NCBI RefSeq assembly: GCF_000184745.1
Contig: NC_014931.1
Span: 5,642,001-5,706,000, forward strand
DNA length: 64,000 nucleotides
Reading direction: 5' to 3'
DNA from: Variovorax paradoxus EPS
GTDB lineage: Bacteria; Pseudomonadota; Gammaproteobacteria; Burkholderiales; Burkholderiaceae_C
Shown here: one piece after another, positions 3,500-24,368 of the stretch
Layout of the letters: the number at the start of each line of letters is the position of its first letter
Numbering within the stretch: position 1 is the stretch's first letter
Position numbers and translations under genes: made by a program
Notes under the pieces: model-generated
What the model saw: the letters and a program-made list of their open reading frames with translations, nothing else
The model's database searches: none
What the model was told of the DNA's origin: nothing

Positions 3500-3513
3500 T
3501 TGACTCAGGTCAA
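3500..3513 (-). promoter_or_regulatory. Palindrome A, TTGAC-N4-GTCAA, upstream of fdsGBA
   Basis: This perfect 14-bp Fnr-type palindrome (TTGACCTGAGTCAA on the minus strand) overlaps the last codons of the LysR gene. It lies ~123 bp before the fdsG start. A -10-like GACAGT lies 22 nt downstream (3477-3472), which would centre the site near -41.5. It is one of five sites with identical half-sites in the window. Confidence 0.7.
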
Positions 3514-4380
3514 TTTCCCGGAAACAAGGGGCCGGGCGCCGCCGGCAGAGACCTCGCGCAAACCCGCGAGCGCCGGCCCGACGATGGCCGGATCGGCGCC
3601 CACCGCGTAGACCGCGTACGCGGGGTAGAGAAACTCCGGCGTGTTGGGCACGCGCCGCAGATGCCCCGATTCGAGATGCGCGCGCACCACGTCGAGCCGG
3701 AAGTAGCCGGTGCCACCCGCGGCCAGCAGGTACTCGCGGCCGAGCGGCCCGAGCCCTGCCTTCACCGCCGCGTTGGAGAGTTCGGGAAACGCAAGGCCGT
3801 GCTGCGCCGCGAACTCCGGGCCCCAGTCGACGTACACGTAGTCCGCCGGCCGCGGCACGCGCGGGCGCTTGGCGGTCGTGACCATCACGAGCTTTTCTTC
3901 GATGAGCAATTCCACGCGCAGCCCCGGCCGCTGCTGCGGGGCATAGACGATGGCGATATCAAGCACGCCCGCCGCCACCTTGTCGAGCAGGTCGTGCGGA
4001 AAGCCGACCTCGGTGCGAACCGCGAGCTGCGGCGCGGTCTGGCGCAGCCACAGCAGCCAGCGCAGCAGCAGCGGGTCCCACAGGCTGATCTCGCAACCGG
4101 CCGCGAGCACCGCCTGGCTGCCATCGGGCACCGCCACCTGGTGGCGCGCCCGCTCCCACACCTGCACGAGCGTCGTCGCATGAGGAAGAAATTGTTCGCC
4201 CGCGCGCGTGAGGGCGGCACCGGCCTTGTTGCGCACGAAGAGCTTGCGGCGCAGCAGTTCTTCGAGCGTTCGCACGCGTGCGCTCACCGAGGTCTGCGTC
4301 ACATGCAGGCGCTCCGCGGCGCGCTGGAAGCTGCGCGTCTCGACGATCGCGAGAAAGGTGCGGGCCAGGTTGATGTCCAT
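3505..4380 (-). CDS. LysR-type transcriptional regulator next to the formate dehydrogenase operon
   Basis: This 291-residue LysR protein has an N-terminal winged helix-turn-helix (LARTFLAIVETRSFQRAAERLHVTQTSVS region, residues ~5-35) and a C-terminal substrate-binding domain. It ends 127 bp before fdsG and reads in the same direction, so a role in fds control is plausible; a LysR protein, FdsR, controls fds in Cupriavidus. The start at 4380 is preferred because GAGG lies ~8 nt upstream and the protein begins directly at the HTH. A start at 4425 would add 15 residues and run through the operator-like palindrome at 4393-4419. The effector is unknown. Confidence 0.88.
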   Translation of the reverse strand: MDINLARTFLAIVETRSFQRAAERLHVTQTSVSARVRTLEELLRRKLFVRNKAGAALTRAGEQFLPHATTLVQVWERARHQVAVPDGSQAVLAAGCEISLWDPLLLRWLLWLRQTAPQLAVRTEVGFPHDLLDKVAAGVLDIAIVYAPQQRPGLRVELLIEEKLVMVTTAKRPRVPRPADYVYVDWGPEFAAQHGLAFPELSNAAVKAGLGPLGREYLLAAGGTGYFRLDVVRAHLESGHLRRVPNTPEFLYPAYAVYAVGADPAIVGPALAGLREVSAGGARPLVSGKLT

Positions 4381-4392
4381 CGAGGCGCCCTC

Positions 4393-4419
4393 GTTGAATG
4401 CATTATTTTTGCATTCAAC
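4393..4419. promoter_or_regulatory. Perfect 10-bp inverted repeat between the LysR gene and the divergent small gene
   Basis: GTTGAATGCA and TGCATTCAAC face each other around a 7-bp AT spacer, starting 13 bp upstream of the LysR start codon. This is the usual place for a LysR autoregulatory site. Further partial copies (TTCAACC TTCAACC TTCAATGC) lie at 4472-4493, before the divergent gene at 4509. Confidence 0.6.
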
Positions 4420-4508
4420 TGGCAATTAATCTCGTTTTACTTGGGCGGTGACCGGGCAGAAGATGAAGGCGTTCAACCTTCAACCTTCAATGCAACCGGG
4501 AGCCACTC

Positions 4509-4745
4509 ATGCCGACCCTTGGTCACTCCGTACAGGCGAAGGGCGCCGAGCGCCTTGCCGATGCGCTCCGGGGCCTCGCCGACGAGGCCTTCATGCTCGT
4601 GGAGGCCTTGCTCAGCCCCCGCAAGCTCATCGAGGACGTGGAGCAGATGCGCGCCTTGCAGGTCGCGGCCGACACCCTCGAAGCCACCGACCCGTGGCGG
4701 GCCGACGTGCTGCGCTCGCGCGCCTCGCGCATCGGCCTTCGCTGA
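4509..4745 (+). CDS. Small conserved-looking hypothetical protein (78 aa)
   Basis: I do not recognise this 78-residue protein. It is predicted to be mostly helical, soluble and charged, with no signal peptide, membrane segment or cysteine cluster. It has a GGGAG ribosome site 6 nt before the ATG. It is transcribed divergently from the LysR gene across a 128-bp gap that holds the 27-bp inverted repeat, which makes it a likely target of that regulator. It converges on the MFS gene with a 17-bp gap. It does not resemble the small FdsD subunit of formate dehydrogenases. A real gene is likely because of the ribosome site, the codon character and the divergent LysR arrangement. Confidence 0.65.
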   Translation: MPTLGHSVQAKGAERLADALRGLADEAFMLVEALLSPRKLIEDVEQMRALQVAADTLEATDPWRADVLRSRASRIGLR

Positions 4746-4762
4746 CTGAAAGAACAATGGAA

Positions 4763-6094
4763 TCAGGACGCCTGGCGGCTGGCCTCGATGTGCTTGCGGC
4801 GCATCGGACGCAACACGAACCAGGCCATCAGCGCGGCCGCGGCATTCACTGCGCTCGCGACGATGAACACCGCATGCCAGCTGCCGGTGGATGCGGCGAG
4901 CACGCTGGAGAGCGGCACCAGCAGCGAGGCCGTGCCCTTCGCGGTGTAGAGCATGCCGGCGTTCGACGCGGCGTACTTGGAGCCGAAGGTGTCGGCGCAG
5001 GTCGATGGGAACAGGCTGTAGATCTCGCCCCAGGCGAAGAACACCATGCCGGTCAGCAGCACGAAGAGGATGGGGTTCTGTCCGTAGTGGTACAGCGCCA
5101 GGATGCCGACCGCTTCGAGCGCGAAGGCGACGAACATCGTCTGCTCGCGGCCGATCTTGTCGGAGACCCAGCCGAAGAAGGGCCGCGTCAGGCCGTTGAG
5201 CACGCGGTCGATGGCGAGCGCGAAGGTCAGCGCGGGCAGCACCAGGCCCATGATGTTGACCGGCACGTCCATGATCTTGAAGTCCTGCGCAATGGGCGCG
5301 AGCTGCGCGGTGGCCATGAGGCCGCCGGCCGCCACCATCACGAACATCGCGTACATCACCCAGAAGATGGGCGAACGCAGTACCTCCGACGGTGCGTAGT
5401 CGCGCTGCGACTGCTGCACGTTGCCGCGGCTCGACGCCGCCTTCACGTGATCGGGTGCACGGGTGAGCAACCAGGCCAGGGCGAAGACGATCACGCCCTG
5501 ACCGATCCCAAAATAGAGAAACGCAGACTCGTAGCCGCTGGTCTTGATCATCACGGAGATCGGGATGATCGTGAGGGCCGAGCCGGCACCGAAGCCCGCG
5601 GCGGTCATGCCCGCTGCAAGCCCGCGACGATCGGGAAACCACTTGAGCGCATTGCCCACGCAGGTGCCGTACACCGCGCCCGCGCCGATACCGCCGACGG
5701 CCGCCGCAACGTAGAGCATCGGCAGCGACGCAGCGAACGAATTCATCACCCACCCAAGGCCGCAGAGCACGCCGCCCACGAGCACCACGGGGCGTGGGCC
5801 GAAGCGGTCGACCAGATAGCCCTCGATGGGCACGAGCCAGGTTTCGGTGAGCACGAAGATGGTGAAGGCCACCTGGATGGCGGCGCGGCTCCAGCCGTGC
5901 TTTTCAGCGATGGGGTTGACGAAGAGGGTCCAGCCGTACTGCAGGTTCGCGATCATCGCCATGCAGACGATGCCGATCAGCAACTGTCCCCATCGATACG
6001 CTTCGGACCGCTTGGCGGTGACGGCGTAGGTGGAATCCGAAGGTGGATACATCGCGGGGTTGGAACCCGCAATCGTGGTGGTTGGCCGAGTCAT
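4763..6094 (-). CDS. OxlT-type MFS transporter (oxalate/formate antiporter family)
   Basis: This 443-residue major facilitator protein has about 12 membrane segments and belongs to the oxalate:formate antiporter (OFA) family. The family's opening segment around residues 35-70 (YGWTLFVNPIAEKHGW) is present. So are an Arg in the DRVLNGLTRPFFGW stretch and a Lys in the late helix (MLYTAKGTASL). These occupy the places of the charged carboxylate-binding residues known in OxlT. The start at 6094 has AGGACA upstream; an in-frame Met at 6148 lacks one. The palindrome at 6226-6239 lies 132 bp upstream with a -10-like GACAGT. With oxc/frc nearby, oxalate or formate is the most likely substrate (inference). 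Confidence 0.9.
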   Translation of the reverse strand: MTRPTTTIAGSNPAMYPPSDSTYAVTAKRSEAYRWGQLLIGIVCMAMIANLQYGWTLFVNPIAEKHGWSRAAIQVAFTIFVLTETWLVPIEGYLVDRFGPRPVVLVGGVLCGLGWVMNSFAASLPMLYVAAAVGGIGAGAVYGTCVGNALKWFPDRRGLAAGMTAAGFGAGSALTIIPISVMIKTSGYESAFLYFGIGQGVIVFALAWLLTRAPDHVKAASSRGNVQQSQRDYAPSEVLRSPIFWVMYAMFVMVAAGGLMATAQLAPIAQDFKIMDVPVNIMGLVLPALTFALAIDRVLNGLTRPFFGWVSDKIGREQTMFVAFALEAVGILALYHYGQNPILFVLLTGMVFFAWGEIYSLFPSTCADTFGSKYAASNAGMLYTAKGTASLLVPLSSVLAASTGSWHAVFIVASAVNAAAALMAWFVLRPMRRKHIEASRQAS

Positions 6095-6225
6095 GGAGTT
6101 GTCCTTAATGTTTTGATGAGTCCGACGGTCTCGGGAAAGACGACGCAATCAGTCGAGTGAAAAACGGAAATGAATCACTTGTTTTTGCGCGTGGATGACT
6201 GTCGGACTGCACGACTCAAAAACTC

Positions 6226-6239
6226 TTGACCGCAGTCAA
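6226..6239 (-). promoter_or_regulatory. Palindrome B, TTGAC-N4-GTCAA, upstream of the OxlT-type carrier
   Basis: This is a perfect 14-bp site (TTGACTGCGGTCAA on the minus strand). A GACAGT hexamer begins exactly 22 nt downstream (6203-6198), the same hexamer and spacing as at the fds site. The geometry fits a class II activator site near -41.5. Confidence 0.7.
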
Positions 6240-6658: not shown

Positions 6659-6672
6659 TTGACCTAGGTCAA
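6659..6672 (+). promoter_or_regulatory. Palindrome C, TTGAC-N4-GTCAA, upstream of the 57-aa gene
   Basis: TTGACCTAGGTCAA is a fully symmetric 14-mer, spacer included. A GATCGT hexamer begins 22 nt downstream (6695-6700), and the start codon lies 97 bp downstream of the site. A further short palindrome, TAGGGT-AA-ACCCTA, lies at 6702-6715, around the predicted transcription start. Confidence 0.68.
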
Positions 6673-6769
6673 GAAACGCGAAATCAGCGTTTGCGATCGT
6701 CTAGGGTAAACCCTAAAATTGCGGGTAATCCCTTCAGTCTTTTTGATTCAACTTCTTAGGAGCATTTCC

Positions 6770-6943
6770 ATGAGCAACACCACCCTCGATTCCCGCGCGA
6801 TCCGCACTGCCCCCCAATCGGCCACCAACGACGAAGCCCTCCGCGATCTGGTCGCCGCAATGCCCATCGTGATCATGTACAAGGCCGCTCGCGCCGCACT
6901 CGTGCAACACCGCAAGAGCATCCGCAGCGCACTGACCAACTGA
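6770..6943 (+). CDS. 57-residue protein of unknown function, candidate member of the oxalate/formate regulon
   Basis: I do not recognise this protein. It is 57 residues long, with a polar N-terminus (~1-22) and a helical, basic second half (~23-55, including AMPIVIMYKAARAALVQ). It has no signal peptide, Cys or metal motif. The ATG at 6770 has TTAGGAG 8 nt upstream. The gene stands alone: promoter-type palindrome C is upstream and a strong terminator at 6969-6997 follows. This complete transcription-unit layout makes it a genuine small gene. Its site matches those before fdsGBA, the MFS carrier, oxc and the TctC receptor, so a role in oxalate/formate physiology is inferred; its function is unknown. 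Confidence 0.8.
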   Translation: MSNTTLDSRAIRTAPQSATNDEALRDLVAAMPIVIMYKAARAALVQHRKSIRSALTN

Positions 6944-6968: not shown

Positions 6969-6998
6969 AAGAGCGCTTCAAGCGCTCTTTTGTTTTTT
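6969..6998. terminator. Rho-independent terminator between the 57-aa gene and the convergent LysR gene
   Basis: AAAGAGCGCTT and AAGCGCTCTTTT form a hairpin around one C, followed by TGTTTTTT on the plus strand. The A-rich other side (ACAAAGA) may also serve the LysR gene, whose stop codon begins at the element's edge. Confidence 0.85.
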
Positions 6999-7945
6999 CA
7001 GGCCTGCGGTTGTCGTGACTCCAGAGGTTTGAACGGCACGATCTGCGAGATCAGCGATGCGCCATCGCTCAGCAGAAAGTCCTTGAAGGCTTGCGCCACC
7101 GGCGGCAGGCGCTTGGTGCGGCGGTGCACCACGTACCAGTTGAGCATCAACGGAAAACCTTCCACGTCGAGCACGCACAAGCTGCCGGCCTTCAGCTCCT
7201 GGCTGATGGTGTGCGCAGAGACGAAGCTCACGCCCATGCCCGCGATCACCGCCTGCTTGATCGTCTCGGTGCTGCGGATTTCCATCGCGATGTTGATGTG
7301 CTCCAGCTCGCGCCCGAAGCCGTCTTCCATCGAGTGCCAGGTGTCCGATGCCTTCTCGCGCACGACGAACGGCTCGCGCATCAAACGCTTCAGTGGAATG
7401 CCCGGCACGCCGACCAGCGGATGCGTCGGCGGCGCAACGATCACGTAGGGGTGCGGGGCAAAGGCCTGGTTCGATGTGTCGAGGTCGGTGGGCGGCCGCA
7501 CCATGATCGCGAGGTCGGTGAGGTTCTCCGCGATGTGGGTCAACAGGCCCTCGCGGTTGTGCACGGTGAAGTTCAGCGTCACGCCGCGATGGCGGCTTGC
7601 GAACTCGACCAACAGGCGCGGAAAGAAGTAGTCGCCCGCGCTGATGACGCCCACATTGAGCTTGCCGCCCGAGACGCCCTTGAACTGCATCATCGCGTTC
7701 TCGGCCGCCTCGAACTGCTGGATGATCGCGCGGCTGATCTGCAGCAGCTCGGCGCCCGCGGGCGTGAGGAAGATCTTCTTGCCGAACTGCTCGAACAGCA
7801 CGTTGCCCGCATGCTCCTCGAGCTTGGCGACCTGCGTGGAGACGGCGGGTTGGGTGAGGTGAAGCTCCTCCGCCGCGCGCGAAAAACTCAAGAGCCGCGC
7901 GACGGCCTCGAAGACCTTCAACTGGCGCAGGGTTGCGTGCTTCAT
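6998..7945 (-). CDS. LysR-type transcriptional regulator (CbbR-like)
   Basis: This 315-residue LysR protein has an N-terminal HTH (residues ~5-65; RLLSFSRAAEELHLTQPAVS) and a two-lobed effector domain. The HTH and the start of the effector domain resemble the CbbR group that controls CO2-fixation and C1-related genes. That resemblance is by eye only. It reads away from the pyruvate kinase gene across a gap of REP-derived tandem repeats and converges on the 57-aa gene. No neighbour is divergently transcribed from it, so its target is not obvious; the oxalate/formate genes on both sides are candidates. Confidence 0.88.
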   Translation of the reverse strand: MKHATLRQLKVFEAVARLLSFSRAAEELHLTQPAVSTQVAKLEEHAGNVLFEQFGKKIFLTPAGAELLQISRAIIQQFEAAENAMMQFKGVSGGKLNVGVISAGDYFFPRLLVEFASRHRGVTLNFTVHNREGLLTHIAENLTDLAIMVRPPTDLDTSNQAFAPHPYVIVAPPTHPLVGVPGIPLKRLMREPFVVREKASDTWHSMEDGFGRELEHINIAMEIRSTETIKQAVIAGMGVSFVSAHTISQELKAGSLCVLDVEGFPLMLNWYVVHRRTKRLPPVAQAFKDFLLSDGASLISQIVPFKPLESRQPQA

Positions 7946-7963: not shown

Positions 7964-8029
7964 CGTTCGGGCTGAGAACCCCGACCGTTCGGGCTGAGAA
8001 CCCCGACCGTTCGGGTTGAGAACCCCGAC
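7964..8029. repeat. Minisatellite of three 22-bp units built on the REP head
   Basis: Three consecutive units of CGTTCGGGCTGAGAACCCCG plus AC (7964-7985, 7986-8007, 8008-8029; the third has TTGAG) run into a full REP hairpin at 8030. Each unit begins with the same ~13 bases as the REP arm and then switches to AACCCCGAC. Confidence 0.85.
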
Positions 8030-8123: not shown

Positions 8124-9545
8124 TCAGTTCGGTATCCGCGCAACGTGCAACAGGTTCGTCGTGCCAGACAAGCCGAACGGCAGCCCCGCCACCACCACCA
8201 CATCGTCGCCCGCTTTCGCGAAGCCTTCGGCCTGCGCGGTGCGGCAGGCGCAGTCGATCATCTCGGCCACGTCGTGCACATCGTCAACCAGCGCCGCGTG
8301 CACACCCCACACCATCGCCATGCGGCGCGCGGCCGCGACGTCGGGCGTCAAGCTCAGGATCGGCACCGCGGGCCGCTCGCGCGCGGCGCGCAGGCTCGTG
8401 AAACCCGAGGAGGTGTAGGTGACGGTGGCCGCCGGCGTGAGCAGCGCGGCCACCTGCCGCATCGAGGCGCACACGGCATCGGCCGTGGTCGAGAGCGCCG
8501 CATCGTGCGTCGCATCGATGCCGGTGCGGTACGACGGGTCGGCCTCCACGCGCGCGACGATGCGGTCCATCATGCCGACCGCTTCGAGCGGGTACTTGCC
8601 CGAGGCCGATTCGGCCGAGAGCATCACGGCATCGACGCCGTCGTAGATGGCGGTTGCCACGTCGGACACTTCGGCGCGCGTGGGCACGGGCGCCGCGATC
8701 ATCGATTCGAGCATCTGCGTGGCCACCACCACCGGCTTGCCGTGCTGGCGGCAGGCGCGCACGATGCGGCGCTGCAATTCGGGCACCTGCTCGGGCGGCA
8801 ATTCCACGCCGAGATCACCGCGCGCGACCATGACGCCGTCGGCCAGCGCGACGATGCCGTCCAGGTGCTCGATGGCCGCGGGCTTCTCCAGCTTGGCCAT
8901 GATCCATGCGCGCTTGCCGATGATCTCGCGCGCCTCGGTGATGTCTTCGGGTCTTTGCACGAACGAGAGCGCGACCCAGTCGACGCCCATCGAGAGGCCG
9001 AAGTCCAGATCGTCGCGGTCCTTCGGTGTGAGCGGCGAGATCGGCAACAGCACGCTCGGCACGTTGACGCCTTTCCGGTCCGAGATCGGTCCGCCGACGA
9101 TGACGGTCGTCTCCGCGAAATCGGCGCCATGGCTCTCCACGCGCAGGCGCAACTTGCCGTCGTCCAGCAAGAGGTCGGTGCCGGCCTGCAGCGCCGCGAA
9201 GATCTCGGGGTGCGGCAGCGGCGCACGGCGGTAGTCACCATTCGTCTTCGTGTCCATGTCGAGACGAAAGCGCCGCCCTGCTTCGAGCTGCGCGCGCCCG
9301 CCTTCGAAGGTGCCCAGCCGGAGCTTCGGGCCTTGCAGGTCGAGCAGCACGCCGATGGGCCGGCCGAACTCTTTCTCGAGCCGGCGGATCGCCTCCAGCC
9401 GGCGCGCATGGTCGTGCTGCGAGCCGTGGCTGAAGTTCAGCCGGAACACATCCACGCCACGCTCGAACAGCGCGCGAATGGCTTGCTCGTCGGGTGTGGC
9501 CGGGCCGAGCGTGGCGACGATCTTTGCGCTGCGTGTGCGTCTCAT
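8124..9545 (-). CDS. pyk: Pyruvate kinase
   Basis: This 473-residue cytosolic enzyme converts phosphoenolpyruvate and ADP to pyruvate and ATP. It shows the N-terminal RLNFSHGS motif, LLDLQGPKLRLG, the active-site segment MAKLEKP and the MVARGDLGVELP metal/substrate loop, with the alpha/beta C-terminal domain after ~350. The length is normal. It is the last gene of a minus-strand series (110-aa gene, sucC, sucD, FAH, panE), separated from panE by 172 bp containing a large inverted repeat, so it may have its own promoter. In an oxalate neighbourhood it could drain PEP made by the glycerate route (inference). Confidence 0.95.
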   Translation of the reverse strand: MRRTRSAKIVATLGPATPDEQAIRALFERGVDVFRLNFSHGSQHDHARRLEAIRRLEKEFGRPIGVLLDLQGPKLRLGTFEGGRAQLEAGRRFRLDMDTKTNGDYRRAPLPHPEIFAALQAGTDLLLDDGKLRLRVESHGADFAETTVIVGGPISDRKGVNVPSVLLPISPLTPKDRDDLDFGLSMGVDWVALSFVQRPEDITEAREIIGKRAWIMAKLEKPAAIEHLDGIVALADGVMVARGDLGVELPPEQVPELQRRIVRACRQHGKPVVVATQMLESMIAAPVPTRAEVSDVATAIYDGVDAVMLSAESASGKYPLEAVGMMDRIVARVEADPSYRTGIDATHDAALSTTADAVCASMRQVAALLTPAATVTYTSSGFTSLRAARERPAVPILSLTPDVAAARRMAMVWGVHAALVDDVHDVAEMIDCACRTAQAEGFAKAGDDVVVVAGLPFGLSGTTNLLHVARIPN

Positions 9546-9590
9546 GGGATGGCCTCTGTTTTCGGATAGTCGCTCGCGTTGCGGCTGTTG

Positions 9591-9704
9591 CTCCCTCTCC
9601 CCTTGGGGAGAGGGCTGGGGTGAGGGCCGACGGCGATGGCGGAAGCGGCGCGCGTGTGAAGGCCCATGCCCTCACCCCCACCCTCTCCCCAAGGGGAGAG
9701 GGAG
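9591..9704. repeat. Inverted pair of hairpin elements between panE and pyk
   Basis: The left half contains CTCTCCCCTTGGGGAGAG, then GGTGAGGGC. The right half repeats the same in reverse complement. Each half folds on itself and the two halves fold on each other. It may act as a terminator or transcript-end hairpin for the panE operon. Confidence 0.75.
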
Positions 9705-9717
9705 AAAGACATGGTGC

Positions 9718-10731
9718 TCATGCCGCGACCTCATGGAGCTTGACGCGCCCCCGCTGCTCTTCCATGGTCCGCGCCAGCAGTTTCACCAGCGTGTACACGG
9801 TGTCGATGTGCGGCGTCGATGTGTCGGTGAGCCGCGCCAGTTCGACCACCGCGCCCACGAGTGCATCGATCTCCGGCGCGCGGCCGGCTTCGACGTCCTG
9901 CAGCATCGAGGTCTTGTGCTTGCCGACCTTCTCTGCGCCGGCGATGCGCTTTTCCAGCGTCACGCGGAACTCGATGCCCAGCTTGTGCGCGACGGCCTGG
10001 GCCTCGCGCATCATCGCGGCCGCGAGATCGCGCGACGGCGGGTACTGGCAGATGTCCACCAGCGTCGAATGCGAGAGGCTGCTGATCGGGTTGAAGGTGA
10101 GGTTGCCCCAGAGCTTGAGCCAGATCTCCGCGCGGATGTTGTCCAGCACCGGTGCCTTGAAGCCCGCGCCGGTGAAGCATGCCGAGACGCGGTTCACGCG
10201 CTCGCTCGACGAGCCATCGAGCTCGCCGACCGGGAAGCGATCGCCTTCGATGTGCTTCACCACGCCCGGCGCGATGAGCTCGGACGCGGGATACACCACG
10301 CAGCCGATCACCCGCTCCGCCGGCAACTTCGCGCTCACCAGCCCCGTGGGGTCGACGCTGCGCACCGGCGTGCCCGCGAGCGCGCCGCCGTGGTTGTGGA
10401 AGTACCAGTACGGAATGCCGTTCTGCATCGTCACGACCATGGTCTCGGGGCCGAAGAGCTTGGGCACGTCGTTGGCCACGGCCTCGACCTGGTGCGCCTT
10501 CATCGCGAGGATGACGATGTCCTGCGGGCCGGCCTCGTCGTAGCTGTCGGTGGCCTTCACGTTGCGCGCGACCTGCTCCTCGCCCTCGGCCGAGACCAGC
10601 TTGAAGCCGTTCGCCTTGATGGCCGCGAGGTTCGCGCCGCGCACGATGAACGTCACGTCTTCCCCGGCCAGCGCGAGTTTCGCGCCGACCAGGCCGCCGA
10701 TGGCGCCTGCGCCGATGACTGCAATCTTCAT
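9718..10731 (-). CDS. PanE/ApbA-family 2-hydroxyacid-type reductase; candidate oxalyl-CoA reductase
   Basis: This 337-residue ketopantoate-reductase family protein has an N-terminal Rossmann nucleotide site (AVIGAGAIGGLVGAKLA, residues 4-20) and an all-helical C-terminal ApbA domain. The catalytic Lys/Glu region can be seen in MKAHQV and WLKLWGNLTFNP. The name by homology is 2-dehydropantoate 2-reductase. In Methylobacterium a PanE paralogue (PanE2) reduces oxalyl-CoA to glyoxylate during growth on oxalate. This gene lies 3.5 kb from oxc/frc in a run with sucCD, so that role is the better guess here. The sequence alone cannot distinguish the two. It follows the FAH gene by 60 bp. Confidence 0.85.
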   Translation of the reverse strand: MKIAVIGAGAIGGLVGAKLALAGEDVTFIVRGANLAAIKANGFKLVSAEGEEQVARNVKATDSYDEAGPQDIVILAMKAHQVEAVANDVPKLFGPETMVVTMQNGIPYWYFHNHGGALAGTPVRSVDPTGLVSAKLPAERVIGCVVYPASELIAPGVVKHIEGDRFPVGELDGSSSERVNRVSACFTGAGFKAPVLDNIRAEIWLKLWGNLTFNPISSLSHSTLVDICQYPPSRDLAAAMMREAQAVAHKLGIEFRVTLEKRIAGAEKVGKHKTSMLQDVEAGRAPEIDALVGAVVELARLTDTSTPHIDTVYTLVKLLARTMEEQRGRVKLHEVAA

Positions 10732-10791
10732 GTCGATCCCCAGTAGTTTTGAATGCGTTGTGCGAGGCCGGCAAGGCTGCTTTTTGTCGTC

Positions 10792-11568: not shown

Positions 11569-11629
11569 TTGTTGTGTGCTTTCTTGAAATCTGCGAGGCC
11601 GTTCAACCAGTGATCGATGGATCGATCGA

Positions 11630-12529: not shown

Positions 12530-12530
12530 C

Positions 12531-13703: not shown

Positions 13704-13717
13704 GGCAATTGATGGCT

Positions 13718-14050: not shown

Positions 14051-14124
14051 GAAATTTCTCCTAGAAATTGAATGCCGGGCGACAAATGGCTTGTGGGCTG
14101 GCATGGTCAAAATGTAGATTCGAT

Positions 14125-15539: not shown

Positions 15540-15974
15540 TTATTTGTTCGTCGCGGCTTCGACTTCTACCAGACGGGCGCGCAATTTGCGCTCCTCGGCG
15601 AAGCGGGCGGTTTCGTCGCGCACGATGGCGACGATGCCCGAAACCTTTTGATCGGGGGCGAACAGCATGGAGACCGTGAAGGCGATGGAAAGGGTGTGGC
15701 CGTCCTTGTGAAGGGCGGGCACGCGCAGCACGTCGGCACCGTATTTGGTGACCGCCGTTTCCATCGTCTTGTTGTAGCCATCCCAATGCCTCTGGCGTTG
15801 TCGCATGGGGATGATGATGTCCAGCGACTGCCCGAGCGCTTCGGCTTCGGTAAAGCCGAAGATGCGCTCGGCAGCCTTGTTCCACAGCGTGATCGCACCC
15901 TTGGCATCGCAGACCATGATCGCGTCGCCGGCCCCGGCGACAAGTTGCTCGAAATCGATGGTCGATGAGGTCAA
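15540..15974 (-). CDS. Stand-alone PAS-domain protein inside the oxalate operon
   Basis: This 144-residue protein consists of one PAS domain (residues ~8-125: [38 protein letters not shown]) and a short charged helical tail. It has no kinase, cyclase, DNA-binding or membrane part. It sits 36 bp after frc and 16 bp before the second CoA-transferase gene, so it is co-transcribed with both. It may sense a ligand or redox state and act by protein contact, for example with the Crp/Fnr regulator or an enzyme of the pathway. No partner is visible in the sequence. The lack of an output domain is the unusual feature. Confidence 0.88.
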
Positions 15975-16010: not shown

Positions 16011-17267
16011 TCAGACGGCCTTGGCTTCGCGAAGGTTGTCGATCTGGGCCTTGGAGTAGCCCAGCTCGGCCAGCACTTCTTCGGTGTGCTCGCCCAGCAG
16101 CGGCGAACCGGTGATCTCGGGCTTGAGGTCCGAGAACTTGATCGGGCTGCCCACGGTGAAGTAGCTGCCGCGCTCCTTGTGCGGCACTTCCACGATCGAG
16201 CCGCTGGCGCGCAGCGATTCGTCGTTCAAGAGTTCCTTCATCGTCAGCACCGGCGCGCACGGAATGTCGAACTTGCGCAGGATGTCGACCGCCTCGAACT
16301 TGGTCTTCTCGGCCAGCCAGGCTTCGATGGTCGCGAAGATGTCGGTGATGTGCGGCTGGCGCGCCTTGGCGGTCATGTAGTCGGGGTCGGTCTTCCATTC
16401 GGGCTTGCCGATGGCGTCGCAGATCGGCGCCCAGGCGTGGCCCTGCACGGTGAAGTAGATGTAGGCGTTCGGGTCGGTCTCCCAGCCCTTGCACTTGAGC
16501 ACCCAGCCCGGCTGGCCGCCGCCGCCGGCATTGCCGCCGCGCGGCACCACGTCGCTGAACGTGCCGTGCGGGTACTGCGGATATTCCTCGAGGTAGCCGA
16601 GGCGATCGAGGCGCTGCTGGTCGCGCATCTTCACGCGGCAGAGGTTGAGCACCGCGTCCTGCATCGAGCAGGCCACGCGCTGGCCCTTGCCGGTCTGCTC
16701 GCGGCCGATGATGGCCGTGAGGATGCCGATGGCCAGGTGCATGCCGGTGTTGCTGTCGCCGAGCGCCGCGGCGCTCACGGTGGGCGGGCCGTCCCAGAAG
16801 CCGGTGGTCGATGCGGCGCCGCCGGCGCACTGCGCGACGTTCTCATACACCTTCAGGTCTTCGTAGTGATGGCCGTCGCTGAAGCCCTTGACCGAGGCGA
16901 CGATCATCTTCGGGTTCAGTTCCTGGATGCGTTCCCAGGTGAAGCCCATGCGGTCGAGCGCGCCGGGGCCGAAGTTCTCGACCAGCACATCCGATTCCTT
17001 GATGAGCTTCTCGAGCACCAGCTTGCCTTCGGGCTGCTTGGTGTCCAGCGTGAGCGAGCGCTTGTTGCTGTTGAGCATGGTGAAGTAGAGCGCGTCCACA
17101 TCGGGAATGTCGCGCAGCTGCGAGCGTGTGACGTCGCCGGCGCCGGGGCGCTCGACCTTGATGACGTCGGCGCCGAACCAGGCCAGCATCTGCGTGCAGG
17201 CGGGACCGGCTTGCACGTGCGTGAAGTCGATGATCTTGATGCCGTTGAGGGGTTTGTTGTCGCTCAT
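16011..17267 (-). CDS. frc: Formyl-CoA:oxalate CoA-transferase
   Basis: This 418-residue cytosolic class III CoA-transferase makes oxalyl-CoA from oxalate and formyl-CoA. Features match the Oxalobacter enzyme: [19 protein letters not shown], the catalytic Asp171 in LGDSNTGMH, the substrate loop [10 protein letters not shown], and a C-terminal [11 protein letters not shown]. Of the two transferase genes in this operon it is the closer to the classical enzyme. It follows oxc by 34 bp and so should be produced with it. A clear ribosome site, AGGAGA, lies before the ATG. Confidence 0.95.
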
Positions 17268-17301: not shown

Positions 17302-19125
17302 TTACTTCTTCTTCGCCGTGGCGGGATTCAGGCTCGTGATGCGCCCGCTCTCCGTGCCCGCGGTTTCGTCGATGACGGCGTTGATCAGCGTCGGGCGGCG
17401 CGAAGCAACAGCCTCGGTCAGGGCCTTCTGCAGTTCGTCGGCGGTGGTGGCATTGACGCCCACGCCGCCGAAGGCTTCCATCAGCTTGTCGTAGCGCGCG
17501 TTCTTCACGAACACGGTGGGCGCCACGTCGGCGGTGCCGCTCGAATTCACGTCGGTGCCGCGGTACACGCCGTTGTTGTTGAAGACGATGATGCAGATCG
17601 GCAGGTTGTAGCGGCAGATGGTCTCCACCTCCATGCCGCTGAAGCCGAAGGCGCTGTCGCCCTCGATGGCGATGACCGGCTTGTCGGTGACCACGGCCGC
17701 GGCAACGGCAAAGCCCATGCCGATGCCCATGATTCCCCAGGTGCCCACGTCCAGGCGCTTGCGCGGCTCGTACATGTCCACGATGCTCCGCGCGAAGTCC
17801 AGCGTGTTGGCGCCTTCGTTCACCACGATGGCGTCCGGCCGTGCCTTCACCTGGTCGCGGATCACGCTGAGCGCGCTGTGGAAGTTCATCGGCGACGGGC
17901 GCGCGGCGAGCGTCACGGCCATCTTCGAGAGGTTCTTGTCCTTGCGCTCGGCGATGGCGCCGGTCCACTCGGTCGGCGGCTTGGCCCACTTGGCGTCGAT
18001 GCCGCCCAACAGCGCCGCAACGCAGGAGCCGATGTCGCCGATCACCGGCGCGGCGATGGCCACGTTGCTGTCGATCTCGGTCGGTGCGATGTCGATCTGG
18101 ATGAACTGCTTGGCGCCCTTGTCCTCGGCCCAGGTCTTGCCCTTGCCGTGCGAGAGCAGCCAATTGAGGCGCGCGCCGATGAGGAGCACCACGTCGGCTT
18201 CCTGCAGCACATAGGAGCGTGCGGCGGCAGCCGATTGCACGTGCGTGTCGGGCAGCAGGCCCTTGGCCATCGACATCGGCAGGTAGGGAATACCCGTCTT
18301 CTCGACCAGTGCGCGGATGTCGGCATCGGCCTGCGCATACGCAGCGCCCTTGCCCAGCAGGATGAGCGGCTTCTTCGCGCCCTTGAGCAGGTCGAGTGCG
18401 CGCTTCACCGCATCGGGTGCGGGAATCTGGCGCGGTGCCGGATCGACCACCTTGATGAGCGATGCCTTGCCCTTGGCCGCATCCATGGTCTGCGCGAAAA
18501 GCTTGGCCGGCAGGTCGAGGTACACGCCACCCGGGCGACCCGACAGTGCCGAGCGGATGGCGCGAGCGATGCCCACGCCGATGTCTTCGGCGTGCAGCAC
18601 GCGGAAGGCGGCCTTGCAGAGAGGCTTGGCGATGGCCAGCTGGTCCATCTCTTCGTAGTCGCCCTGCTGCAAGTCGACGATTTCGCGTTCGCTCGATCCG
18701 CTGATGAGGATCATCGGGAAGCAGTTGGTGGTCGCGTTGGCCAGCGCCGTGAGGCCGTTCAGGAAGCCGGGGGCGGACACCGTGAGGCAGATGCCGGGCT
18801 TTTGCGTCAAGAAGCCTGCGGCTGCTGCGGCATTGCCGGCGTGTTGTTCGTGGCGGAATGAAATGACCCGCATGCCCTCGGCCTGCGCCATGCGCGTGAG
18901 GTCGGTGATCGGGATGCCGGGGAGGCCGAAGATGGTGTCGATGTCGTTCAGCTTCAGCGCATCGATGACCAGGTGGAAGCCGTCGGTCGTTTCGGCCTCC
19001 GGTGCGTCGTCCGCCACCGGTTTGAGGGCTCGCACGACCGCATCGCCGTCAACGGCCCGGCTCGTGGGCTTGAGGGCGTCGTCCAGGGTCGTGGATGCCT
19101 CTTTGTCCGTTCTTACTGAAGACAT
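17302..19125 (-). CDS. oxc: Oxalyl-CoA decarboxylase
   Basis: This 607-residue thiamine-diphosphate enzyme splits oxalyl-CoA into formyl-CoA and CO2, the central step of oxalate breakdown. Visible are the ThDP-activating Glu in [12 protein letters not shown] and the ThDP/Mg motif starting [11 protein letters not shown] and ending in FNNNG. The three-domain length is normal after residue ~45. The first ~45 residues (Ala/Asp/Glu-rich) extend beyond the known Oxalobacter enzyme. The start at 19125 was chosen for its AAGGAGAG site; the frame stays open to 19800 only because it runs antisense to the Crp/Fnr gene. It heads the operon with palindrome D 73 bp upstream. Confidence 0.96.
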
Positions 19126-19168: not shown

Positions 19169-19174
19169 ACTATG
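19169..19174 (-). promoter_or_regulatory. Predicted -10 element of the oxc promoter
   Basis: CATAGT on the minus strand is the best -10 match of the five sites. It lies 23 nt downstream of palindrome D, placing the transcription start near 19162 and the palindrome centre near -42. Confidence 0.5.
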
Positions 19175-19197: not shown

Positions 19198-19211
19198 TTG
19201 ACCTCGGTCAA
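19198..19211 (-). promoter_or_regulatory. Palindrome D, TTGAC-N4-GTCAA, between oxc and the Crp/Fnr gene
   Basis: On the minus strand this reads TTGACCGAGGTCAA; with flanking bases, GTTGAC...GTCAAC is symmetric over 16 bp. It faces the oxc operon with a CATAGT hexamer downstream. On the other side, 80 bp away, is the start of the regulator gene, so autoregulation is possible, but no matching -10 is seen in that direction. Confidence 0.75.
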
Positions 19212-19290: not shown

Positions 19291-19899
19291 ATGACGTTGT
19301 TGGAAAACCACCCGGAAAAAAACATCATTCGCGCGCAGCTCCGGCAGAACGTCCTGCTCAAGGACCTGAGCGAGAGCGACCGCGCAGAACTCGAAGCCCA
19401 CCTCGTGATCGTGGACGGCAACAAGGGCGATTTCCTGTTGCACCAGGGGGTGCGCGAGATGGAGCAGTACTTCATCCTCGACGGCATCCTGAAGCGGGTC
19501 GTGAGCAACCCCGAAGGCAAGGAAATGATCCTTCGCTTCGCCGACGAACACGACATGGAAACGAGCTATGCGGCACTGCGGCTGGGCACGCCGACGCCCT
19601 ACGGCATCGTGTGCGTCACCAAGGCCCGCGTGGCGAGCCTGCCGCTGAAGGAATGGATCACCTTCTTGAACCGGCACCCCGAGACGAAGGAGCTGTTCGA
19701 GTACCTGGTGATGAAGGGGATGAGCGAGATCATGGCGCACACGATCACGCTGCACTTGCTCGATGCGCCGGGGCGCGTGCACCGGTTCATGCGCAAGCAC
19801 CCGGAGCTGGAAGACCGGATTCCTAGCAAGGAGCTGGCTTCTTATCTGAATCTCTCCGCGGAAACCCTTAGTCGGCTTCGCAAGCGCGGGAAGATTTAG
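19291..19899 (+). CDS. Crp/Fnr-family transcriptional regulator, proposed regulator of the TTGAC-N4-GTCAA sites
   Basis: This 202-residue protein has an N-terminal cyclic-nucleotide-type beta-roll (~15-120), a dimer helix and a C-terminal winged HTH (~150-202). The recognition helix reads [11 protein letters not shown]: Glu191, Ser194 and Arg195 give the E-x-x-S-R pattern that in FNR proteins reads TTGA half-sites, while Crp has E-x-x-G-R. It lacks the FNR iron-sulfur cysteines; its only Cys is near 108. It should therefore sense something other than O2 through a [4Fe-4S] cluster. The ATG at 19291 has only a weak GACGGG upstream; the longer frame to 19141 would run through palindrome D. It is divergent from oxc. 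Ligand unknown. Confidence 0.9.
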
Positions 19900-20824: not shown

Positions 20825-22357
20825 TCAATCCACCGGACGCTCGACGGCGAACTCGTCGGGCTTCTTCGGCGGCTTGATGAGGGCGATGCCCTTGGAGATC
20901 AGCGGCCAGAACAACAGCACCAAAGCCAGCGTCGTGATGCCGCCCACCAGCGGGTTGGAGAACATGATCATCACGTCGCCTTGCGAGACCAGCATGGCCT
21001 GCCGGAACGAGTCTTCGGCCTTGTCCCCGAGCACCAGTGCAAGCACCAGCGGCGCGAGCGGGAAGTCGAGCTTCTTGAACAGATAGCCGATGACGCCGAA
21101 ACCGAGCATGAACCAGATGTCGAGCATCGCGTTGTGCACGGTGTAGGCACCGATCGCGCAGATCACGATGATCACCGGCGCGATGATCGAGAACGGAATG
21201 CGCAGGATCGAGGCGAACAGCGGCACCGTGCTCAGCACCACGATCAGGCCCACGATGTTGCCCAGGTACATGCTGGCGATGAGGCCCCAGACGAAGTCCT
21301 TCTGCTCGACGAAGAGCAGCGGTCCGGGCTGCAGGCCCCAGATCAGCAGGCCGCCCAGCAGCACGGCGGCGGTCGGTGAACCGGGGATGCCCAGCGCCAG
21401 CATCGGCAGCAGCGCGCTGGTGCCTGCCGCGTGCGCCGCGGTCTCGGGGGCGACGACGCCTTCCATCTGGCCGGTGCCGAACTTGGAGCCCTTCTTCGAC
21501 ATCTTCTTGGCGAGGCCGTAGGCCATGAACGAAGCCGGTGTGGCGCCGCCGGGCGTGATGCCCATCCAGATGCCGATGAGCGAGCTGCGCAGCGACGTGA
21601 CCCAGTACTGCGGCAGTTGCTTCCAGGTCTGCAGCACGACCTTGGGGTCGATCTTCGCGCTCTTGCCGGAGAACTTCAGGCCCTCTTCCATCGACAGCAA
21701 AATCTCGCCGATGCCGAAGAGGCCGATCACCGCGATCAGGAAGTCGAAGCCGCGCATCAGCTCGGGCTGGCCGAAGGTCAGGCGCAGTTGGCCGGTGACC
21801 GTGTCCATGCCGACCGAGGCGAGCGCGAAGCCGAGCGCCATCGACGCGAGGATCTTGAACGGCGACCCTTTCCCCATGCCGACGAAGCTGCAGAAGGTCA
21901 GCAAGTACACCGCAAAGAATTCGGGCGACCCGAACTTGAGCGCGAACTTCGCGACCAGCGGCGCGAGGAAGGTGATCATCACCACCGCGATGAAGGCACC
22001 CACGAACGACGACGTGAAAGCCGTGGTGAGCGCGGCACCCGCGTTGCCCTGCTGTGCCATCGGATAGCCATCGAAGGTGGTGGCAACCGACCAGGGCTCG
22101 CCGGGGATGTTGAACAAAATCGAGGTGATGGCCCCGCCGAACAACGCACCCCAGTAGATGCACGACAACATGATGATGGCCGAGGTCGGCGACATCGTGA
22201 ACGTGAGGGGCAACAGAATCGCCACCCCGTTGGCGCCGCCCAGCCCCGGCAGCACGCCGATGAGCACGCCAAGAATGATCCCCACGAACATCAGTGCGAT
22301 GTTCATCGGGGTCAGGATCACTGCAAAGCCCTGCATCAGGGCGCTGATTTCGTCCAT
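20825..22357 (-). CDS. tctA: Tripartite tricarboxylate transporter, large permease subunit (TctA family)
   Basis: This 510-residue inner-membrane protein has about 12 hydrophobic segments and is the large permease of a TTT system driven by ion gradients. The family's signatures are visible near residues 20-45 (GVLIGVLPGLGGANGVAILLP region) and in the second repeat (MGITPGGATPASFMAYGLA; LGIPGSPTAAVLLGGL). It is preceded by tctB (19 bp) and followed by the kinase-like/BON gene. The substrate cannot be read from sequence. The location and palindrome E upstream of the receptor gene suggest oxalate or a related carboxylate. Confidence 0.94.
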   Translation of the reverse strand: MDEISALMQGFAVILTPMNIALMFVGIILGVLIGVLPGLGGANGVAILLPLTFTMSPTSAIIMLSCIYWGALFGGAITSILFNIPGEPWSVATTFDGYPMAQQGNAGAALTTAFTSSFVGAFIAVVMITFLAPLVAKFALKFGSPEFFAVYLLTFCSFVGMGKGSPFKILASMALGFALASVGMDTVTGQLRLTFGQPELMRGFDFLIAVIGLFGIGEILLSMEEGLKFSGKSAKIDPKVVLQTWKQLPQYWVTSLRSSLIGIWMGITPGGATPASFMAYGLAKKMSKKGSKFGTGQMEGVVAPETAAHAAGTSALLPMLALGIPGSPTAAVLLGGLLIWGLQPGPLLFVEQKDFVWGLIASMYLGNIVGLIVVLSTVPLFASILRIPFSIIAPVIIVICAIGAYTVHNAMLDIWFMLGFGVIGYLFKKLDFPLAPLVLALVLGDKAEDSFRQAMLVSQGDVMIMFSNPLVGGITTLALVLLFWPLISKGIALIKPPKKPDEFAVERPVD

Positions 22358-22376
22358 TTCGCTGTGCTCCGTGAGT

Positions 22377-22898
22377 TCAGTAGCCGAGGAACCGGAGGGG
22401 GTCGAGTGCGCCCTTGAACAGGGGCACCTTGAACCACACCTCGAACATGCAGAAGAAGACCGTGTTGACCGCGAGGGCCGCGATCACGCTCTTCACCCAC
22501 GAGTACTTGCCCAGCACGATCATGAAGAGCGCGATGTAGATCGCCGATGCGACATACAGCCCCACGAAGGTGATGCACAGCACGTACACGCTGGCCGGCA
22601 CCAGCACCGAGAGCACGCGCTTGAGCTGCACCGAATCCACGAACACCTCGGTGTTGCGGTTCTTGCCGAGCAGTGCCTGGTACAGGATGCCCGCGCCCGA
22701 GATCGTGATGATCACGCCGATGAAGAACGGGAAGTAACCCGACCCCGGCCCATCGGTCGTCCAGCCCGCGCCGAGCTTGCGGGCCTCGAACACCACCACC
22801 AGCCCGATGATGAGCAGCAGCGCCGCGACCACCGCCTCGACCACGTAGGTGGCGACGCCCGAACGCGGCGCCCCATCGGAAATTTCTTCGTGCTCCAT
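22377..22898 (-). CDS. tctB: Tripartite tricarboxylate transporter, small permease subunit (TctB family)
   Basis: This 173-residue membrane protein has four predicted helices (starting ~20, 60, 95, 125). The GSGYFPFFIGVII stretch after the first helix is typical of TctB proteins. The ATG at 22898 was chosen because it begins just before the first helix; the sequence further up is repeat DNA. It is co-transcribed with tctA. The receptor gene lies upstream but is separated by a 325-bp stretch of REP-derived repeats, which may lower expression of the permease relative to the receptor. Confidence 0.88.
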   Translation of the reverse strand: MEHEEISDGAPRSGVATYVVEAVVAALLLIIGLVVVFEARKLGAGWTTDGPGSGYFPFFIGVIITISGAGILYQALLGKNRNTEVFVDSVQLKRVLSVLVPASVYVLCITFVGLYVASAIYIALFMIVLGKYSWVKSVIAALAVNTVFFCMFEVWFKVPLFKGALDPLRFLGY

Positions 22899-22959
22899 GG
22901 AGCCCCCATCGTTTGTGTGTGAGAGAAAGAAAGCGCCATCGCGCCAGTCAACCAAAAAA

Positions 22960-23077
22960 CCGTTCGCTGATCGGCAGCCAACCGTTCGCTCCGATCAACA
23001 GCCAACCGTTCGCCCCGATCAACAACCAACCCTTCGCGCTGATCAACAACCAACCCTTCGCGCTGATCAACAACCAA
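22960..23077. repeat. Minisatellite of five 22-24-bp units built on the REP head
   Basis: The units start at 22960, 22982, 23006, 23030 and 23054. The consensus is CCGTTCGC-CTGATCAAC-AACCAA in pieces; the last two units are identical. Each begins like the REP arm (CCGTTCxCGCTGA) and switches to TCAACAACCAA. The array runs into a complete REP at 23078. Confidence 0.85.
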
Positions 23078-23192
23078 CCGTTCACGCTGAGCTTGTCGAA
23101 GCGCCGCGCAAGGCTTCGACAAGCTCAGCCCGAACGGGCGGCGAGGCGAAAGAGCCCGTGCATCCTGAGCCTGTCGAAGGGAGCCCGAACGG
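23078..23192. repeat. REP hairpin plus a further partial REP copy
   Basis: CCGTTCACGCTGAGCTTGTC pairs with GACAAGCTCAGCCCGAACGG (ending 23137). A diverged half, CCTGAGCCTGTCGAAGG, followed by GAGCCCGAACGG, ends at 23192, 31 bp before the end of the TctC gene. The whole 22899-23223 gap between tctC and tctB contains only this repeat DNA. Confidence 0.8.
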
Positions 23193-23223
23193 TTGTCGTC
23201 AATTCATCGACCGCGAGTCCGGC

Positions 23224-24255
23224 TTACTTGTTGCTGGCCAGGAAGCCCGCGTCCGACATCAGCGTGCGGTGCGTCGTTTCGGCCGTGGTGAGCCAGTCGG
23301 CAAAGGGCTTGCCGGTCATGAAGGTCGGGTTGAAGGCACCCTTCTCCATGTATTCCTTCCACTCCGGCGTGGCGGCCACCTTGGTCAAGAGGTCCGTATA
23401 GAACTTGAGCTGCTCGGGCGTGACGCCGGCGGGCATGAAGATGCCGCGCAGCATCGTGTACTTGGTGGGCACGCCCGCTTCCTTGCAGGTGGGCACGTCG
23501 TTCCACGATTGCGTGTCCGTCACCTTCGCCTTGAAGGGCATGCGCTCGTCGTCGAACACGCACAGCGCGCGCAGCTTGCCGGCGCGCCATTGCGCAACGG
23601 CTTCGATCGGGTTGTTGACCGTCGAATGCACGTGGCCGCCCACCAGCTGCACCGCGACTTCGCCGCCGCCCTTGAAGGGCACGTAGATGAACTTGGTGCC
23701 CGTGGCTTTCTCGAGCGCCACGGTGATGATCTGGTCTTCCTGCTTGGAGCCGGTGCCGGCCATCTTGAACTTGTTGGGGCCCGCGGCCTTGGTCGCCGCG
23801 ATGTATTCGCCGGCCGTCTTGTAGGGCGCGTCGACGTTGGTCCACAGCACGAACTGGTCGAGCGCCAGCATCGCGACGGGCGTCATGTCCTTCCAGTTGA
23901 AGGGCACGCCGGTGGCCATGGGCGTGGTGAACAGGTTCGACAGCGAGATGATGATCTTGTGCGGATCGCCCTTGGCTTCCTTCACCGCCAGAAAGCCTTC
24001 GGCGCCCGCGCCGCCCGACTTGTTGACGACGATGAGCGGCTCTTTCATGAGCTTGTATTTGATGACGATGCCTTGCAGCAGCCGCCCCATCTGGTCGGCG
24101 CCGCCGCCGGTGCCGGCGGGGATCACGAACTCCACGGGTTTGGACGGCTCCCACGCGAAGGCGGGGGTGGCTGCGGCCAACGCCAGGACGGCCGCGCCAA
24201 GGGCTTTTGCAGGCCAGCTGCGGACGGCCTGCGAAGCGATGTTTTTCATCGTCAT
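23224..24255 (-). CDS. tctC: Tripartite tricarboxylate transporter receptor (TctC/Bug family)
   Basis: This is a 343-residue periplasmic solute-binding protein. The signal peptide covers about the first 28 residues (basic MTMKNIASQAVR, hydrophobic AVLALAAATPAFA, cleavage before WEPSKP). The mature Bug fold shows the conserved beta strand VEFVIPAGTGGGADQ and the ligand-loop region GTGSKQEDQI. The ATG at 24255 has GGAG 6 nt upstream; the Met at 24249 is the alternative. Palindrome E lies ~100 bp upstream. It is the first gene of tctC-tctB-tctA and probably delivers oxalate or a related carboxylate (inference from context only). Confidence 0.93.
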   Translation of the reverse strand: MTMKNIASQAVRSWPAKALGAAVLALAAATPAFAWEPSKPVEFVIPAGTGGGADQMGRLLQGIVIKYKLMKEPLIVVNKSGGAGAEGFLAVKEAKGDPHKIIISLSNLFTTPMATGVPFNWKDMTPVAMLALDQFVLWTNVDAPYKTAGEYIAATKAAGPNKFKMAGTGSKQEDQIITVALEKATGTKFIYVPFKGGGEVAVQLVGGHVHSTVNNPIEAVAQWRAGKLRALCVFDDERMPFKAKVTDTQSWNDVPTCKEAGVPTKYTMLRGIFMPAGVTPEQLKFYTDLLTKVAATPEWKEYMEKGAFNPTFMTGKPFADWLTTAETTHRTLMSDAGFLASNK

Positions 24256-24354
24256 GTCTGTCTCCAATCTGTGTAGGGTTCGCCCTTTTTTATTCTTGGA
24301 TCTGAGCGGAGATACGAACAGGGCGGATGTTGCGCGCACGCGTTCCGCGTCGAC

Positions 24355-24368
24355 TTGACCGTGGTCAA
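24355..24368 (-). promoter_or_regulatory. Palindrome E, TTGAC-N4-GTCAA, upstream of the tctCBA operon
   Basis: TTGACCACGGTCAA on the minus strand is followed 22 nt later by CAACAT (24332-24327), a weak -10. Its centre is ~106 bp from the receptor start codon. It is the fifth perfect copy of the motif. Confidence 0.7.

Follow-up and report, generated by a model that had tools for sequence, protein, structure and literature searches.

Genes and palindromes at the oxalate locus

The window analyzed here is a 64,000-nucleotide (nt) stretch of Variovorax paradoxus EPS (NC_014931.1, positions 5,642,001 to 5,706,000). It carries genes for oxalate and formate metabolism and five perfect TTGAC-N4-GTCAA palindromes (TTGACNNNNGTCAA), which appear to be the operators of a local oxalate-catabolism regulon. 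Judged from sequence, the most likely reader of these sites is a 202-amino-acid (aa) protein encoded at 19291-19899. The features are listed below by window position.

downstream of fdsB, continuing past the window edge, minus strand: fdsA (putative)
1321..2880, minus strand: fdsB (PF01512, PF10589)
2877..3377, minus strand: fdsG, first gene of the fds formate dehydrogenase unit (PF01257)
3472..3477, minus strand: fds promoter, -10-like hexamer GACAGT (22 nt beyond site 1)
3500..3513, minus strand: site 1, TTGACCTGAGTCAA read toward fdsG (pattern match), overlapping the stop codon of the upstream LysR gene
3505..4380, minus strand: lysR1, a LysR gene among the target units
4763..6094, minus strand: oxlT, oxalate/formate antiporter of the major facilitator superfamily (TIGR04259, 664.6 bits, cut-off 335)
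6198..6203, minus strand: oxlT promoter, -10-like hexamer GACAGT (22 nt beyond site 2)
6226..6239, minus strand: site 2, TTGACTGCGGTCAA read toward oxlT (pattern match)
6659..6672, plus strand: site 3, TTGACCTAGGTCAA before the 57-aa gene (pattern match)
6691..6719, plus strand: predicted TTGCGA-17-TAAAAT promoter of the 57-aa gene, with the site centre at about -60.5 (class I position)
6770..6943, plus strand: 57-aa gene (no Pfam or NCBIfam match; 23 homologues in the protein database)
6998..7945: lysR2, a LysR gene among the target units
8124..14110, minus strand: probable rest of the oxc unit (130-aa open reading frame, succinate/malate-CoA ligase pair, FAA-family hydrolase, PanE-like reductase, pyruvate kinase; Pfam/NCBIfam; co-transcription predicted)
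14276..15523, minus strand: frc2, formyl-CoA transferase (TIGR03253, 719 bits, cut-off 504)
15540..15974, minus strand: PAS-domain protein within the oxc unit (PF00989, TIGR00229)
16011..17267, minus strand: frc1, formyl-CoA transferase-like (from its sequence and its relatives beside oxc)
17302..19125, minus strand: oxc, oxalyl-CoA decarboxylase (TIGR03254, 1002 bits, cut-off 739)
19169..19174, minus strand: oxc promoter, -10-like hexamer CATAGT (23 nt beyond site 4)
19198..19211, minus strand: site 4, between oxc and the regulator gene, TTGACCGAGGTCAA when read toward oxc (pattern match)
19291..19899, plus strand: Crp/Fnr-superfamily regulator, 202 aa, candidate reader of the five sites (PF00027, 37.7 bits, cut-off 27.5)
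20825..24255, minus strand: tctCBA, tripartite tricarboxylate transporter (tctC 23224-24255, PF03401; tctB about 22377-22898, from position and relatives; tctA 20825-22357, PF01970)
24327..24332, minus strand: tctC promoter, -10-like hexamer CAACAT (22 nt beyond site 5)
24355..24368, minus strand: site 5, TTGACCACGGTCAA read toward tctC (pattern match)

A pattern search of the window recovered all five palindromes listed in the first-pass annotation (starts at 3500, 6226, 6659, 19198, and 24355) and no sixth, against a mean chance expectation of 0.01; none of 100 dinucleotide-preserving shuffles reached five or more. The gap between site and start codon is 122 nt for fdsG, 131 for oxlT, 97 for the 57-aa gene, 72 for oxc, and 99 for tctC, and the range of 73 to 132 bp given earlier for these separate units is thus correct to within one base. 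The regulator gene is divergent from oxc with a single site in between, 79 nt from the regulator start codon. Site 1 shares bases with the TGA stop codon of lysR1.

The whole 6,550,056-base genome contains seven TTGACNNNNGTCAA sites, and the same pattern written backwards, used as a control, occurs three times. Five of the seven lie inside 20.9 kb (p = 6.9e-12 for one given stretch and approximately 2e-9 over all stretches); the matches in this genome are not scattered. One of the two sites outside the window precedes an AAA+ ATPase gene (genome position 2518625), and the other is at the beginning of a response-regulator-like gene (3351131). The number of bare matches per genome was also considered as a test among 100 genomes of the genus, 57 of which carry the regulator. 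It was dropped, because regulator-negative genomes match too (mean 4.4, compared with 6.3 in regulator-positive genomes; 41 of the 43 have at least one match) and the count is not diagnostic. The case for a regulon is carried by the position, clustering, and conservation of the sites rather than by their number.

Co-occurrence of the regulator with oxc and conservation of the sites

In a sample of 150 genomes of the family, including the V. paradoxus EPS genome, 27 genomes have the regulator (at least 65% identity) and 29 have oxc (E of 1e-100 or better). Every genome with the regulator also has oxc, and none of the 121 genomes without oxc has the regulator (Fisher test 9e-28, relatedness ignored). 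Weaker matches in the family (E 0.001) are other Crp-type proteins, typically 20 to 35% identical, plus two closer paralogs (45 to 47%). At the level of the order, 54 of 300 sampled genomes carry the regulator, distributed over 13 families including that of V. paradoxus. Among the best 80 of 554 relatives in named genomes, the regulator is found in Variovorax, Polaromonas, Curvibacter, Collimonas, Methylibium, and Oxalicibacterium. The closest of the named relatives belong to Variovorax; V. boronicumulans CC172, V. paradoxus MEDvA23, and Variovorax sp. IB41 have regulators with 100% identity. One locus (L062:13656-15742) has a second regulator copy, 46 to 47% identical, with its own perfect site and adjoining a 68% identical oxlT.

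The first-pass annotation had pointed to the same promoters in related bacteria, and there the sites are conserved. The regulator-oxc gap contains a site in 26 of 26 family relatives (22 perfect, three with one mismatch, and one with two), and all 18 genus loci have a site with at most one mismatch. Divergent oxc was found in 74 of the 80 loci with the best relatives (68 perfect, five one-mismatch, and one two-mismatch sites); locus L162, which starts within the regulator gene, is outside the 74. Of 53 further regulator genomes of the order, 29 yielded loci, 23 of them with a site of no more than one mismatch upstream of the regulator. Three of the other six have regulator and oxc in tandem, with a perfect site before oxc and none before the regulator, and two have a one-mismatch site 0.5 to 0.8 kb before, and facing, an frc homologue. 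In five additional order genomes, oxc or frc is in every case preceded by a site with no more than one mismatch. In six loci of one family (f47), frc and oxc flank the regulator on opposite sides and two sites are present, one facing each gene (6/6), with TATAGT toward frc and TATGAT, TATCAT, or TAAGAT toward oxc, each at 22-23 nt. Where gene order is rearranged the site stays with oxc, and where oxc and frc are split each has its own site. The two-site loci strengthen this line of evidence.

For the first genes of units, we counted how often a site with no more than one mismatch lies within 400 bp; the rows are drawn from overlapping samples and are not independent. The site was found at tctC in 80/81, the regulator in 122/125, oxc in 103/121, oxlT in 28/34, fdsG in 8/10, and the 57-aa gene in 7/7. 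Internal genes used as controls scored 0/112 (frc1), 0/93 (tctA), 0/71 (cmk), 0/31 (pyk), 1/108 (frc2), 1/74 (apbA), and 1/47 (sucC). Other control genes gave 3/37 (lysR2), 0/12 (lysR1), and 20/37 (the small gene orf78), the last of which we take to reflect a gap shared with the neighboring gene. The oxc scan started from an extrapolated start: 18 of the 121 rows have two or more mismatches, several because this start lies beyond the site, and perfect sites were seen in the regulator-oxc gap of L073, L077, L078, and others despite poor rows. The regulator-side counts are cleaner in this respect.

The fds site is perfect in seven of eight regulator-positive genus genomes with fds of at least 73% identity. 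It was seen in the genus alone, apart from a one-mismatch copy in genome G052 (L118:3922); the fdsG row of G052 in the promoter and spacing counts used the oxlT-side site instead of this one. The site is missing in G162, which is regulator-positive with fds in the same neighborhood, and in L061/L183. Four regulator-positive loci (L259-L262) have fdsG homologues of 59 to 64% identity and no site. The fdsG gene itself was found in 12 of 15 regulator-positive and one of 15 regulator-negative genus genomes. A contrast of fdsG promoters between the two groups was set aside, as it rests on a single negative genome (G175, no site).

A Tct-type transporter is a recurrent neighbor of the regulator, frequently where the locus has no oxlT, and has the site at its tctC promoter as counted above. 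It is a candidate oxalate importer.

Site consensus and promoter geometry

A logo of 111 sites, preselected for no more than one mismatch and thinned to at most 75% downstream identity, gives the extended consensus T-Y-n4-A-A-A-n-TTGACC-NN-GGTCAA, with the A-rich flank upstream only. Constant halves with varying spacers had been described for the window; the halves are indeed exact in all five sites, and the spacers proved to be partly constrained, with C as the first base in 76% and G as the last in 73% of the 111 non-redundant sites.

A NANNNT hexamer is found 22 or 23 nt after the site in 42/42 oxc, 39/41 tctC, 19/21 oxlT, and 6/7 fdsG promoters. An average pair of positions scores 0.08 to 0.11, and the next best separate pair scores 0.45 (oxc), 0.57 (oxlT), 0.27 (tctC), and 0.14 (fdsG), which reflects relatedness. 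The hexamers in the window are CATAGT (oxc), CAACAT (tctC), and GACAGT (both oxlT and fdsG). This spacing would place the site centre at -41.5 or -42.5, and the four promoters fit class II activator geometry. CRP is a textbook activator of both class I and class II promoters. Toward the regulator gene the class II spacing is absent (7% of 68), so the spacing lends no support to autoregulation through the site.

The 57-aa gene gave only 1/4 in the class II test, and class I spacing was therefore examined. A promoter search found one promoter-like match (TTGCGA-17-TAAAAT), with 0.4 expected in shuffles. The distance of 41 between site and TAAAAT is identical in L130, L133, and L136. In four genus loci (L125, L127, L128, and L280) the sole site near the 57-aa gene is the one facing oxlT. 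The sequence AGGGTAAACCCT at 6703-6714, unique in the window, falls between the -35 and -10 elements of this gene, and GGGTAAACCC ahead of the -10 is kept in the relatives examined; this is possibly the site of a second regulator. In genome G183 a small open reading frame (L277:1560-1780) resembles the 57-aa protein by eye and has its own site 23 nt before TAGAAT, with no tblastn match there.

The perfect site before the AAA+ ATPase gene (C1:2518625, L001:1501-1514) has TAGCAT at 22 nt, and this gene is a sixth candidate target. The site is also present in two close relatives (L278 and L279), with TAGCAT at 22 and 23 nt.

The regulator protein

The regulator has an N-terminal beta-roll of the type that binds cyclic nucleotide monophosphates (PF00027 match, residues 45-129), the sole Pfam domain found. 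The C-terminal region aligns to CRP and to 3dn7 through the recognition helix, yet it has no helix-turn-helix Pfam match and its model has a predicted local distance difference test score (pLDDT) of 34 to 63. The mean pLDDT of the predicted structure is 73; its fold matches are of the Crp family and, coming from a low-confidence model, add little. The best match among solved structures is 3dn7, a cyclic-nucleotide-binding-type protein of Cytophaga hutchinsonii (E 3.8e-12, residues 26-199); the alignment stops three residues short of its chain end, and no oxalate link was found for 3dn7.

Fnr-type regulators bind TTGA-type palindromes, and the first-pass annotation proposed a reader of this type. 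The recognition helix does resemble that of FNR: E-T-L-S-R is invariant in sets of 27 and 31 orthologs, with E191, S194, and R195 in the window protein, and the half-sites are almost as constant. The protein is not FNR proper. It has one cysteine, and no cysteine column is invariant in either set of orthologs (the commonest, C108, is present in 15/27 and 27/31), so an FNR-type oxygen sensor is absent. PMC4505428 gives Glu-209, Ser-212, and Arg-213 as FNR contacts and four cysteines as essential. The sites here share with the E. coli FNR box TTGATNNNNATCAA the palindrome with a 4-bp spacer, the TTGA half-sites, the Glu-Ser-Arg helix of the reader, and the placement at -41.5. They differ in that the fifth base is C instead of T in nearly all sites and the targets are oxalate genes, and the regulator lacks the four-cysteine [4Fe-4S] motif and ends right after the recognition helix. 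From its sequence, it is predicted to read DNA like FNR without the oxygen sensor.

The regulator also matches CRP in sequence (E 8e-6) and in predicted fold. In the alignment its Glu and Arg fall on Glu181 and Arg185 of CRP and an Ala falls at the place of Arg180; Arg180, Glu181, and Arg185 are the residues with which CRP reads TGTGA. The Ala suggests a reader of TTGAC, as found in the sites, and not of TGTGA. Pseudomonas DNR (3dkw) is matched at E 7e-5; unlike what its function would suggest, the conserved sites precede oxalate and formate genes, no genome-wide search for denitrification genes having been made. Several JGI orthologs are named "dissimilatory nitrate respiration regulator", which looks like over-annotation.

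Proposed mechanism and alternative explanations

We consider it very likely that the neighboring 202-aa protein activates these promoters through these sites. A dimer would bind TTGACC-NN-GGTCAA. At oxc, oxlT, tctCBA, and fds it would be centred at about -41.5 (class II), replacing the -35 element and recruiting RNA polymerase, and at the 57-aa gene it would sit near -60.5 (class I); the transcript starts are likewise predicted. Oxalate uptake by OxlT and Tct, CoA transfer by Frc, decarboxylation by Oxc, and formate oxidation by Fds would then be switched on jointly. It is moderately probable that the regulator senses an oxalate-derived metabolite; oxalate, oxalyl-CoA, or formyl-CoA may control it. 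The earlier proposal that one regulator coordinates oxalate entry, decarboxylation, and formate oxidation gains support from the co-occurrence of regulator and oxc, the conservation of the promoter sites, and the fixed distance to a -10-like element. Two of the three results that had been named as refuting it were not observed: the matches in this genome do not form a random scatter, and relatives do keep the sites.

Several observations count against this activator model. Genome G249 has the regulator and no site in any fitting place, and six of 34 oxlT and two of 10 fdsG promoters are without a site of at most one mismatch. The assembly of genome G052, which is in 340 contigs with oxc at the end of one, has sites at oxc, oxlT, and fdsG and lacks a regulator ortholog. 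The statistics are inflated because the genomes are related, and the logo draws on preselected sites. Among the 13 cyclic-nucleotide-binding proteins found in the V. paradoxus EPS genome (more divergent paralogs could be missed), one CRP-like paralog, C1:1541867, has an R-E-M-V-S-R helix, the sole other E-x-x-S-R; the helix alone therefore does not single out the regulator, and this line of evidence is weakened.

The same protein could be a repressor that blocks polymerase until an oxalate-derived ligand frees it. Toward the regulator the site comes as near as 7 nt to the start codon (L071), which would suit autorepression, but exact centring at -41.5/-42.5, together with -10 elements and no visible separate -35, corresponds to class II activator layout, and the class I spacing at the 57-aa gene also suits activation; repression is unlikely. 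We think it more improbable still that another Crp/Fnr protein, either the CRP-like paralog or an oxygen- or NO-sensing regulator, reads the sites while the neighboring gene has another role. The closeness of TTGAC to the FNR half-site TTGAT, the exact box TTGATCGCGATCAA in L061 (also L183), the sites of G052, and the helix of the paralog would agree with such a reader. However, the sites and the neighboring regulator travel together across 13 families, genome G049 has oxc and neither regulator nor site, and the paralog retains the arginine that in CRP reads TGTGA.

Main control by a neighborhood LysR protein (3505-4380 or 6998-7945), with the palindromes in a secondary role, is hardly credible. 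The target units do have two LysR genes among them, and many loci contain lysR2 relatives, but neither gene is present in every locus with the site, the length and spacing of the motif are of Crp/Fnr type, and the site is kept in L130, where lysR1 is missing between fds and oxlT. There is equally little to be said for the palindromes as -35 elements or RNA stem-loops instead of operators. TTGAC gives five of the six bases of the sigma-70 -35 element and one site scored as terminator-like. A -35, however, would need a single half-site and here both are conserved, an RNA stem would permit paired changes and here the letters do not vary, and six loci have a separate copy for each of two divergent genes.

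A thiamine pyrophosphate enzyme as possible replacement of Oxc

In seven of the 29 order-level loci the gene under the site encodes a different thiamine pyrophosphate (TPP) enzyme, 23 to 28% identical to Oxc over the part compared (L294-L298, L182:4526-6280, and L200:2-640; several families). No canonical Oxc was found in those seven genomes, the best match being 26 to 27% identical. In genome G254 the TPP enzyme gene lies directly before frc1 (88%), PAS (70%), and frc2 (90%). The nearest solved structures are 2-hydroxyacyl-CoA lyases (E 1e-80), followed by proteins named oxalyl-CoA decarboxylase, and the best 120 relatives are named acetolactate synthase, sulfoacetaldehyde acetyltransferase, or TPP-binding protein. 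Since both enzyme types yield formyl-CoA, it is plausible that the TPP enzyme replaces Oxc as a candidate second type of oxalyl-CoA decarboxylase.

Other features of the locus

The stand-alone PAS-domain protein between frc1 and frc2 (15540-15974) is recurrent in many loci and missing from others. In Methylobacterium, a PanE homologue is an oxalyl-CoA reductase, and by analogy the oxc unit, with its PanE-like reductase, may serve both oxidation and assimilation. Degenerate tandem repeats (CCGTTCGGGCTGAGAACCCCGA-like and CAACCGTTCGCGCTGATCAA-like) are found between genes at about 7970-8090 and 22960-23130, each close to a GCTTCGACAAGCTCAGC stretch.

Significance

Among the papers listed from the open-licence literature, where absence is weak evidence, none describes a regulator of oxc/frc in Burkholderiales. 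PMC9476978 describes an oxalotrophy operon in Cupriavidus oxalaticus and says that gene-level analysis is lacking. A term search gave no word starting with "regulat" in PMC12927642, and none of "regulat", "Variovorax", and "operon" in PMC10192776. It was concluded that the sites are real, strongly conserved, and interpretable as a mechanism, and that the regulon, though new, is of a known kind. A broader proposal seems to us evenly balanced: that this is a dedicated Burkholderiales-wide oxalate regulon, run by an uncharacterised, cysteine-poor, metabolite-sensing subfamily of Crp/Fnr proteins, which marks a second class of oxalyl-CoA decarboxylase (the approximately 26% identical TPP enzyme, a non-orthologous replacement) with Tct as oxalate importer.

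Oxalate is a common plant and fungal product that is removed by oxalotrophic soil bacteria. If the activator model is correct, a single 202-aa protein and its 14-bp site would define the oxalate regulon in a dozen or more families of the order and would provide a directly testable switch, perhaps a part for an oxalate biosensor. The promoter site would also be a route to missing pathway genes, with the Tct transporter, the 57-aa protein, and the Oxc-replacing TPP enzyme as candidates.

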